Positions 60,570 through 64,000 of a stretch of DNA of 64,000 bases are shown here, in pieces (position 1 is the stretch's first letter; every line of letters begins with the position of its first letter). Under the pieces are notes generated by a model. The model saw only the letters and a program-made list of their open reading frames with translations. It did not search any database and had not been told where the DNA came from. The stretch is from positions 310,001 through 374,000 of the forward strand of contig JANXCF010000003.1 of the NCBI GenBank assembly GCA_025059995.1, written 5' to 3'. The position numbers were made by a program, and so were the translations under genes. The stretch comes from Leptospiraceae bacterium. GTDB lineage: Bacteria; Spirochaetota; Leptospiria; Leptospirales; Leptonemataceae.

Positions 60570-60602
60570 GCCACTTCTTTCGAATGAGAAGTGGCTTTTT
60601 TT
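60570..60602 (+). terminator. intrinsic terminator after the OmpA-type gene
   Basis: GCCACTTCT (60570-60578) and AGAAGTGGC (60587-60595) form a perfect 9-bp stem with an 8-nt loop, then seven T (60596-60602). The T run overlaps the stop of the convergent GGDEF gene. Confidence 0.9.
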
Positions 60603-61884
60603 ACAAAATCTCCACGCGATTTCTTCCCTTTGATTTGGCAAGATACAATGCTTCATCTGCTCTTTTTAGAAAGGAATTAATATCATCATTTTCTTGAAAT
60701 AGTGAAATTCCAACACTCACTGTGATAGTCGGTAAATCAATACTTCTAAAATGAGTTTCAATCAACGTTCGTATTTTATCACCAAACATAACAAGGTGAT
60801 CGTAGTTTATCTCAGGTGCAAGGATGATGAATTCTTCACCCCCCCATCTTGCAAATAAATCGGATTTTCGGATATTGAAACTTATTACCCGACAAAATTC
60901 TTTCAAAACCTCATCTCCAATCAAGTGTCCATATTGATCATTGACTTTTTTAAAATGATCAATATCCAAAAGTAAAATACCAAAGGTTTTTGAGTCTTTA
61001 TAACGTTTATGCTTTTCGATATGAAAATTGAGAAAATTATGAAAATATTGTCGATTATATATTCCTGTCAAAAAATCTACACTTGCTACACGCTTTAAAA
61101 CCTCTTTTTGTTTCTCTTGTATGGTAATATCGTAATAGGTAACAAAATATTTATCTGATTCCATCCACTTCGCTGAAACTGAAAACACATGTTCTTCATT
61201 GGTTTTTGGATTTCTCATGACTACTTTTCGTTTCTCAACTGGTAATTCCAATACTTCATTTAACCAGTTTTCATGATTGTGTATATAACCTTCTTTTTCA
61301 ATGAAGAACTCACAAATGCATTTATAATGGCTTTTGAAATCTAAAAGGCTTTTAAAACCCAAGAAATCTAACCCATAAGTATTTAAAGCAAACAACTCTT
61401 TACCATTACTGACAGAAACAATACATTCTAACGAACTAAAAATCTTATTAATCAAATTATTTTGAAACTGAATTTTTCGATTCAAAAGAATTTGGGTTTT
61501 GATTTCATGTAATATTTCATATAGTTCAGAAATAACAACTGGTTTAACTAAATATTTATAAACTCTTTTATCAATAGACTCTTTTAAAATTTCCCTTTCT
61601 TCATATGCTGTAAGTACAATTGGATAAAAGTCTTCTTTTATTGCTTTCATGTGTTCAATCATTTTCAAACCATCCATACTTGGCATTCGAATATCGGTAA
61701 TCACAATCTCAGGAAGGATTTCTTTAAATCTTAGAAGTCCAATTTCACCATCTTCTGCAGTGTAAATAGAATTAAATTCTAATTCTAATATCTTTTTTAA
61801 ATAATCCAATGCTACTTTACTATCCTCAACAATTAAGATTTTGACTTCGTCTGAAATTTCTAAAATCTTTGGATCAAACTGCAT
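60601..61884 (-). CDS. response regulator with GGDEF (diguanylate cyclase) output
   Basis: The protein makes the second messenger cyclic di-GMP. A receiver domain (about 12-130) has the phospho-acceptor near Asp62 (IVITDIRMPSMDG) and Lys111 (YLVKPVV). The middle (about 140-270) is PAS-like. The GGDEF domain (about 280-427) has the active site GGEEF and an I-site RxxD five residues before it (RKSD), so it should be active and product-inhibited. Its ATG lies 5 nt after the restored stop of the upstream kinase gene, so they form a two-component pair. Confidence 0.93.
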   Translation of the reverse strand: MQFDPKILEISDEVKILIVEDSKVALDYLKKILELEFNSIYTAEDGEIGLLRFKEILPEIVITDIRMPSMDGLKMIEHMKAIKEDFYPIVLTAYEEREILKESIDKRVYKYLVKPVVISELYEILHEIKTQILLNRKIQFQNNLINKIFSSLECIVSVSNGKELFALNTYGLDFLGFKSLLDFKSHYKCICEFFIEKEGYIHNHENWLNEVLELPVEKRKVVMRNPKTNEEHVFSVSAKWMESDKYFVTYYDITIQEKQKEVLKRVASVDFLTGIYNRQYFHNFLNFHIEKHKRYKDSKTFGILLLDIDHFKKVNDQYGHLIGDEVLKEFCRVISFNIRKSDLFARWGGEEFIILAPEINYDHLVMFGDKIRTLIETHFRSIDLPTITVSVGISLFQENDDINSFLKRADEALYLAKSKGRNRVEIL

Positions 61885-61960
61885 AAACCCTAAAAACGAA
61901 CAATCACCATGGCTCCCAAACAGCCATCAAATATGAAATTATCACAATGTAAACTACCAT

Positions 61961-63784
61961 TCATTTTTTCAAAATCAAATATGATGAATAAAGTCCCAGA
62001 CCCTTACCATCCAGCTTTTTCGTTGTATTATAGGGTTGAAATAGCCTTTCTAGAACCTCTTTTGGGAAACCCCTTCCATTATCCCAAATTCTTATTTCTC
62101 TGGTTTTTGAAAAAATGTCAATTTTAATGATTCCTACATGATTTTGAATTTTTCTGCGACATTCTAGAATAGCTTCCATTGAATTGTTTAAAATATGTAG
62201 CATGACTTGTTTATATAAATTTTTATATCCAAAAACCATAAAATCTTCATCGTTATTAATTATAAATTGTATATTCGAAATTTCCAATGGTACCTTCAGA
62301 AATTCCAAAACTGAGAATAATTCATTTCTTACACTAAATTCAGTTTTTTCTTGATCCCACTCGTAAAGGCTCTTAAAATCATTGATTGTGTCTGAGAGTA
62401 ATTGAATTTCTTGTAAAGTTGCTTCTAAAATTGATTGTAAATCTAAACCTGTATGCATCTCTTTTTTTGAGTGATACATTATATATTGTAGCATCAAAGT
62501 GATGTTATTTAAAGGTTGTCTCCAGTGGTGAGCTATGATATTCAAACTTTCCCCAATCGCAGCTAATTTTGATTGATATAAAAACATCTGTTCTTTTTCT
62601 TTTTTTTCTTTTTCGACTTTTATAAGATCAGTAACTTCATAAAAAATTGCAAGTGATTCTTTAGAATTTCTTGTTCCATTAATTGGGTACAAAAATAAGT
62701 AAAAAAATCGCTCTGGCGAATTTCCCAATCGAACACCCCAGAAACGAGGTTCTTCGTTGGCTTCAAAACCTTTAAATCCATTATCAATAAAGTCTAATAA
62801 ATCTGTAAAATCTAAATTTCTTAACTTTCGAATAGGCGCTTTTAATATTTCTTCTGAATAATTATTACACTCAATGATCCTATTATTCCTAATGATTCCA
62901 ATTCCAAATAATCTCTGGTTATATAATAACTGAAACCTCTTATAAAGTGAGATTCGCTTATGAATTTCTTGAGTGAAAAAAGTTTCCAAACGCTGATGAA
63001 TTTCTTCCATTTCTCGTTCTCGTTGGAGCTTCAATTTTTCTGTAATATCATGAATAATAAAAAAAAGATATTTCTTCTTTTGAACCTCAACCACTGAGGA
63101 AAAAATCTCTACTTCTTTCATTGAACCATCAGCCAATCTTTGAGGAATCAAAAAATAATTTAGGAGATTCAAAGCTGCTTGGTGTATTTTTAATTCAAGT
63201 TCTTCTTTAGGTATTACAAAGAAATCCAGTAAATTTTTGTTTTTTAGTCTTTCTTTAGTAAATCCATAGAAATTTTCTGCTGACGTATTTGCTTCAACAA
63301 TCGAACTCGTTTCCGGATCCACTATCAACATGTGAACAGAATGTTTCTCAAAAAAAGAAATATACTTTTCTAATTCATTTTTAATTCTTTCTTGTAGTCG
63401 AAACTGACAGGATACATCAATCAAATACCCAACATATATCTCTGGTTCATGATTTTGATTATAAAAACAGATTTTATGATCATCTACCCAAATAATCTCT
63501 TGATTCTTTTTTTTAAAGCGATAAGTCTTATGCTTCCATCTTTTTAACTTAAATTCATAACTAAACATTCGGATTTCTTCTTTGAATCTTTCCAAATCCT
63601 CTTCATGGATGACATCTGAATATAAAACTTTTCTTTCCAACCACTCTTGAGAAGTATAACCCGTCAAATCTACCACATTTTCTGTTACAAAATCAACTGG
63701 CCATTTTTCTTCATTTCTCCAAACAAAAATAACAACAGGTCCCAACTGAAAGATTTCTTTGATAAAATCGAGAGCTAACTGCAT
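61961..63784 (-). CDS. PAS-domain sensor histidine kinase, C-terminus cut by a frameshift
   Basis: As read, the protein has 607 residues: three PAS-like domains (about 10-130, 145-265, 285-400), a HisKA dimer domain (IAHHWRQPLNNITLML near 425) and a HATPase domain with DNGRGFPKEV, FQPYNTTKK and GKGLGLYSSY. It stops at GLYSSYLILKK, just before the last strand of the ATPase fold. Adding one base to the A6 run (61964-61969 on the plus strand, T6) extends it by MNGSLHCDNFIFDGCLGAMV... to a TAG at 61890, 5 nt before the GGDEF gene. No membrane helix, so it is probably a cytoplasmic sensor. Confidence 0.88.
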   Translation of the reverse strand: MQLALDFIKEIFQLGPVVIFVWRNEEKWPVDFVTENVVDLTGYTSQEWLERKVLYSDVIHEEDLERFKEEIRMFSYEFKLKRWKHKTYRFKKKNQEIIWVDDHKICFYNQNHEPEIYVGYLIDVSCQFRLQERIKNELEKYISFFEKHSVHMLIVDPETSSIVEANTSAENFYGFTKERLKNKNLLDFFVIPKEELELKIHQAALNLLNYFLIPQRLADGSMKEVEIFSSVVEVQKKKYLFFIIHDITEKLKLQREREMEEIHQRLETFFTQEIHKRISLYKRFQLLYNQRLFGIGIIRNNRIIECNNYSEEILKAPIRKLRNLDFTDLLDFIDNGFKGFEANEEPRFWGVRLGNSPERFFYLFLYPINGTRNSKESLAIFYEVTDLIKVEKEKKEKEQMFLYQSKLAAIGESLNIIAHHWRQPLNNITLMLQYIMYHSKKEMHTGLDLQSILEATLQEIQLLSDTINDFKSLYEWDQEKTEFSVRNELFSVLEFLKVPLEISNIQFIINNDEDFMVFGYKNLYKQVMLHILNNSMEAILECRRKIQNHVGIIKIDIFSKTREIRIWDNGRGFPKEVLERLFQPYNTTKKLDGKGLGLYSSYLILKK

Positions 63785-63785
63785 T

Positions 63786-64000
63786 TTAGTAGATTCTTAT
63801 TGTCTTGATATTTGTGAACTCTCGAATCCCTTCTAAAGAAAGTTCTCTTCCATAGCCAGATTCTTTTACGCCTCCGAAAGGAAACCCAGGATCAGACTTC
63901 ACCATACCATTCACAAAAACATTTCCAAAAAATAATTCCGGCATGATGTTTTTTACTTTTTTGTAATCTGTAGTCCAAATTGACACTCCAAGTCCAAAAT
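63786..64000 (-). CDS. aldehyde dehydrogenase, C-terminal part
   Basis: Only the last 71 residues are in the window; the 5' part lies beyond 64000. The visible part (FGLGVSIWTTDYKK..., FGNVFVNGMVKSDPGFPFGGVKESGYGREL) matches the end of NAD(P)-dependent aldehyde dehydrogenases, nearest the succinate-semialdehyde type (VKSDP.LPFGGVK.SGYGREL). It ends one base before the kinase start codon on the same strand. Confidence 0.85.
   Translation of the reverse strand, partial: FGLGVSIWTTDYKKVKNIMPELFFGNVFVNGMVKSDPGFPFGGVKESGYGRELSLEGIREFTNIKTIRIY

Follow-up and report, generated by a model that had tools for sequence, protein, structure and literature searches.

Loss of frame at an A6 run near the end of a sensor histidine kinase gene adjacent to a REC-GGDEF gene in a Leptospiraceae genome

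The kinase gene and its orthologues

The window, a stretch of 64,000 nucleotides (G000:C3:310001-374000), belongs to a genome of 2.38 Mb assembled in 17 contigs. A sensor histidine kinase gene located at its end is flanked by genes encoding an aldehyde dehydrogenase and a REC-GGDEF response regulator. All features listed below are on the minus strand and are given in window positions.

60601..61884 (-): REC-GGDEF response regulator of 427 aa, intact, directly downstream of the kinase
61890..61964 (-): out-of-frame kinase C-terminal remnant, 24 codons (MNGSLHCDNFIFDGCLGAMVIVRF) followed by TAG at 61892-61890
61961..61963 (-): TGA that ends the truncated kinase, directly after the A6 run, overlapping the ATG of the other frame as ATGA
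61964..61969 (-): A6 run, the point where the kinase departs from the congener frame (from the sequence and the congener alignment)
61961..63784 (-): sensor histidine kinase ORF of 607 codons, with PAS domains, an H box and a HATPase_c domain that is cut short
63786..64000 (-): 3' end of the aldehyde dehydrogenase gene, the upstream neighbour, kept in all congeners

The junction reads TTG AAA AAA TGA and the truncated protein ends with ...GKGLGLYSSYLILKK*. The other frame opens with ATG AAT GGT and runs to the TAG, which is separated by 5 nt from the ATG of the REC-GGDEF gene (61884). Pfam matches were obtained in the kinase for PAS_3, PAS_9 and HATPase_c, with HisKA staying below its cut-off, and the H box (AHHWRQPL) was HisKA-like. 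The H box as well as the N, G1, F and G2 ATP-binding boxes were all present, the nucleotide-binding boxes being located upstream of the break. Residues H419, N533/N534, D568-G570-G572, F582 and G593-G595-G597 were invariant with the congeners. An A8 run elsewhere in the gene (near 63510) was read in frame, and the congener alignment revealed intact catalytic motifs and no other lesion in the remaining kinase.

The comparison was made with three congeners (JAOACE010000022, BPKM01000001 and CALFVU010000008), whose public records are metagenome-assembled genomes. An orthologue of the kinase was found in each of them, with 37-47% identity. The order aldehyde dehydrogenase–PAS histidine kinase–REC-GGDEF (window 60601-64000) was identical in the window and the three congeners, i.e., in four of four genomes of the genus. 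In no congener was the gene frameshifted; it ran through the break point as one continuous frame in all three, which confines the base loss to the window genome. The in-frame ends of the congener kinases were ...ILKKMNATIYCYN..FVIQFRE, ...IINKMNANIYCYN..IIKFRK and ...ILNKMNADIFY..IIKFR, all with KMN, the M of which is the methionine opening the lost tail of the window kinase. The 24-residue tail aligned to the three congener tails with BLOSUM62 scores of 45, 42 and 21, reached by 0, 1 and 1780 of 20,000 shuffles, respectively, the score of 21 belonging to the most distant congener and being not significant. Judged by these alignments, the out-of-frame tail is still a recognisable kinase remnant, beyond chance. 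Eight of its 24 residues were identical, versus 47% in the kinase body, but such a difference covers too few codons to judge relaxation.

A same-species record was sought among genome contigs, where near records may be omitted, and only the three congeners and distant relatives were found. A DNA pattern spanning the junction gave no match in viral contigs, and the search of the literature on this hot-spring Leptospiraceae genus yielded nothing useful.

Lost strands of the HATPase domain

The Pfam HATPase_c profile (PF02518) was matched in the window kinase from position 6 to about 82-85 of 111. In the congeners, the match spanned positions 3-108, 4-108 and 2-107 and the domain was complete, including the terminal strands that are missing from the window kinase. 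Among the 15 HATPase_c matches above the cut-off in the window genome, 12 of the 14 others reached positions 107-110.

The model of the congener kinase core had a mean pLDDT of 80.5 and matched solved histidine kinases, e.g., HK853 and Leptospira LvrB. The segment lost in the window corresponds in this model to strands E233-242 and E245-254, with a pLDDT of about 90, so that the stretch lost is, as modelled, the last two beta strands (the terminal hairpin) of the HATPase domain. The truncated core of the window kinase modelled worse (mean pLDDT 65.9 vs. 80.5), which is weak evidence since the models were built from four sequences and the window and congener queries differ.

The first-pass annotation of this DNA had described the frame loss at the A6 run, the TGA and an other-frame tail reaching a TAG at 61890, which leaves 5 nt to the GGDEF gene, and these coordinates and sequence facts were confirmed. 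It had also assigned to the break the removal of the last strand of the kinase; the C-terminal loss is real, but two HATPase strands are gone, not one. The continuous frame of all three congeners agrees with two of the readings put forward there, a newly broken kinase or a homopolymer error. A 607-residue end shared by relatives, named there as the finding that would speak against the break, occurred in none of the three.

Frame breaks elsewhere in the genome

Other frame breaks were screened for by comparing 1.63 Mb of the window genome (2.38 Mb) with 1.2 Mb of two congeners, which covered 458 distinct loci and 507 kb of aligned sequence. The compared coding sequence contained 1486 A/T runs of 6, 665 of 7, 256 of 8 and 48 of 9, i.e., about 2,460 runs of at least 6, of which two were broken. 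Only two frame breaks remained after sorting, at the A6 run of the kinase and at an A9 run of metH. Just one A9 break was found among the 36 A9 and 161 A8 coding-strand runs in the set. With one further break judged real across 458 loci, widespread homopolymer miscalling in the assembly was ruled out. The remaining candidates were sorted by eye, not by an automated procedure; several of them were judged to be artefacts, caused by an out-of-frame piece of a broken congener gene used as the query, an upstream start extension or paralogues.

A similar screen of the congener BPKM01000001 (G002:C1) gave many more candidates, without a rigorous count. This record seems rich in frame-broken genes and less accurate, and caution is needed when it serves as a reference.

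The second broken gene is located roughly 4 kb beyond the end of the window and about 6 kb from the kinase break (contig coordinates):

G000:C3:376670-378402 (-): metH, broken and shortened, with the frame break at the A9 run at about 378,010

In this gene, 128 conserved N-terminal residues are in one frame and are followed by a frame of 470 codons, in which homocysteine methyltransferase was the sole domain recognised; the congener protein is about 1,230-1,240 aa long. No B12-binding match in a metH-sized frame (about 1,240 aa), as in the congeners, was detected in the window genome. Because metH is also missing its remaining domains, its shortening points to real gene erosion in the neighbourhood.

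Origin and consequences of the frame break

The explanation that we favour, with slightly better than even confidence, is a recent real loss of one base in the A run, which cripples the kinase in a single lineage of this uncultured genus of Leptospiraceae. Replication slippage would have removed the base and put the last 24 codons of the PAS-histidine kinase gene out of frame. The resulting 607-residue protein retains all ATP-binding motifs and, by comparison with its orthologues, is devoid of the terminal HATPase beta hairpin. It would probably be unstable or inactive, which would abolish or weaken the input to the intact REC-GGDEF diguanylate cyclase next to it. As the kinase is otherwise undamaged, with intact catalytic motifs, such a loss must be very recent. 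A disruption private to one genome, with intact orthologues in all three congeners, is also what a recent pseudogene would show.

As the main rival to a real mutation, the missing base may be a consensus error, made in the sequencing or assembly of this draft, probably metagenome-assembled, genome; the living organism would then have an intact kinase. We regard such an error as a serious possibility, albeit one well short of even. The shortening of an A run by one base is a classic type of sequencing error, and the tail is recognisable and ends exactly where expected, as if it had never been out of frame. The A runs of the kinase and metH are both one base short, and two such breaks about 6 kb apart could also come from one thinly covered stretch. 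However, an error-prone consensus is at odds with the two breaks among all A/T runs compared, with the single break among the A9 and A8 coding-strand runs and with the A8 run inside the kinase that was read in frame. A tolerated truncation, in which the protein of 607 residues still works as a kinase, or as an altered one, and can do without the lost strands, is very unlikely. The N, G1, F and G2 boxes are all upstream of the break, but in the homologues listed the protein extends past this point to include the terminal strands, and the truncated domain has a poor predicted fold.

Equally improbable is a partial restoration of the frame, by transcriptional slippage on the A6 run or a ribosomal back-step at the TGA, which would produce truncated and full-length kinase side by side. 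The tail is conserved and its frame open, the TGA comes immediately behind the A run, and AAA in the P site could slip back by one base and pair again, which would bring ATG into the A site; a precedent is Citrobacter rodentium tssM1, where the frame is restored at 11 A's preceding a stop (PMC4256274). Nevertheless, the frameshift was absent from all congeners, which ruled out conserved recoding. In 467 aligned coding pieces (508 kb of the window genome) confronted with synonymous shuffles, the observed/expected ratios of coding-strand A runs were 1.11 for A6, 1.04 for A8, 0.74 for A9 and 0.16 for A10, with 0.12 for T10; A and T runs of at least 10 were strongly avoided, those of 9 mildly and those of 5-8 not at all. 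As A6 was slightly commoner than expected and A10 was avoided, a run of six does not count as prone to slippage here. Runs are avoided from a length of nine in many bacterial genomes (Baranov et al., PMC1088944), and productive slippage by E. coli RNA polymerase required at least seven T's (PMC6260861). Moreover, G AAA AAA does not fit the canonical X XXY YYZ slippery heptamer and would permit a one-tRNA slip alone, and the RNA fold downstream of the junction did not stand out clearly from shuffled sequences (z -1.42, with 18 of 200 shuffles of equal or greater stability). A single-tRNA slip at the TGA is possible on paper, with nothing to support it, and a programmed switching of the kinase is unsupported. 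The suggestion of the first-pass annotation that slippage recovers the frame and thereby switches a cyclic di-GMP module was not supported by these data. The link to cyclic di-GMP output proposed there is reasonable, since the kinase adjoins the REC-GGDEF gene in all four genomes; together they may constitute a two-component input to cyclic di-GMP.

The distance from the kinase stop to the REC-GGDEF start is 2-6 nt in the congeners and 76 nt from the premature stop in the window. Reinitiation is almost abolished once the distance reaches about 20 nt (PMC10666635), and stop/start overlaps of the ATGA type usually couple translation (PMC6728339). With the premature stop so distant, the coupled translation of the cyclase could fall, unless ribosomes restart at the ATGA and read the tail to the TAG. 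It is conceivable, albeit very unlikely, that a restart at the ATG within the ATGA gives a separate 24-residue peptide of the two terminal strands, which might complement the kinase, with reading to the TAG keeping the GGDEF gene coupled.

If the base loss is real, the locus captures one lineage in the course of losing a two-component input to a diguanylate cyclase, with the output gene intact. If it is a consensus error, the case is a caution against taking homopolymer frameshifts in draft genomes for switches. Neither outcome would surprise a specialist.

The orthologous PAS-histidine kinases of the genus resemble the window kinase in gene order, domain order, sequence (37-47% identity) and tail, but have a complete C terminus that is read in frame. 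In tssM1 of C. rodentium, a C-terminal domain is likewise located in another frame behind an A run ending in a stop. However, that run is an A11 before a premature stop that is rescued by transcriptional slippage (PMC4256274), whereas the window gene has an A6 run and no evidence of restoration, and its relatives simply have an intact frame. Ordinary homopolymer-indel pseudogenes share with the window kinase a frame lost by one base in an A run and confined to a single genome, and did not differ from it in any of the features tested. The kinase break looks like an ordinary recent mutation or sequencing slip and not like a controlled switch.
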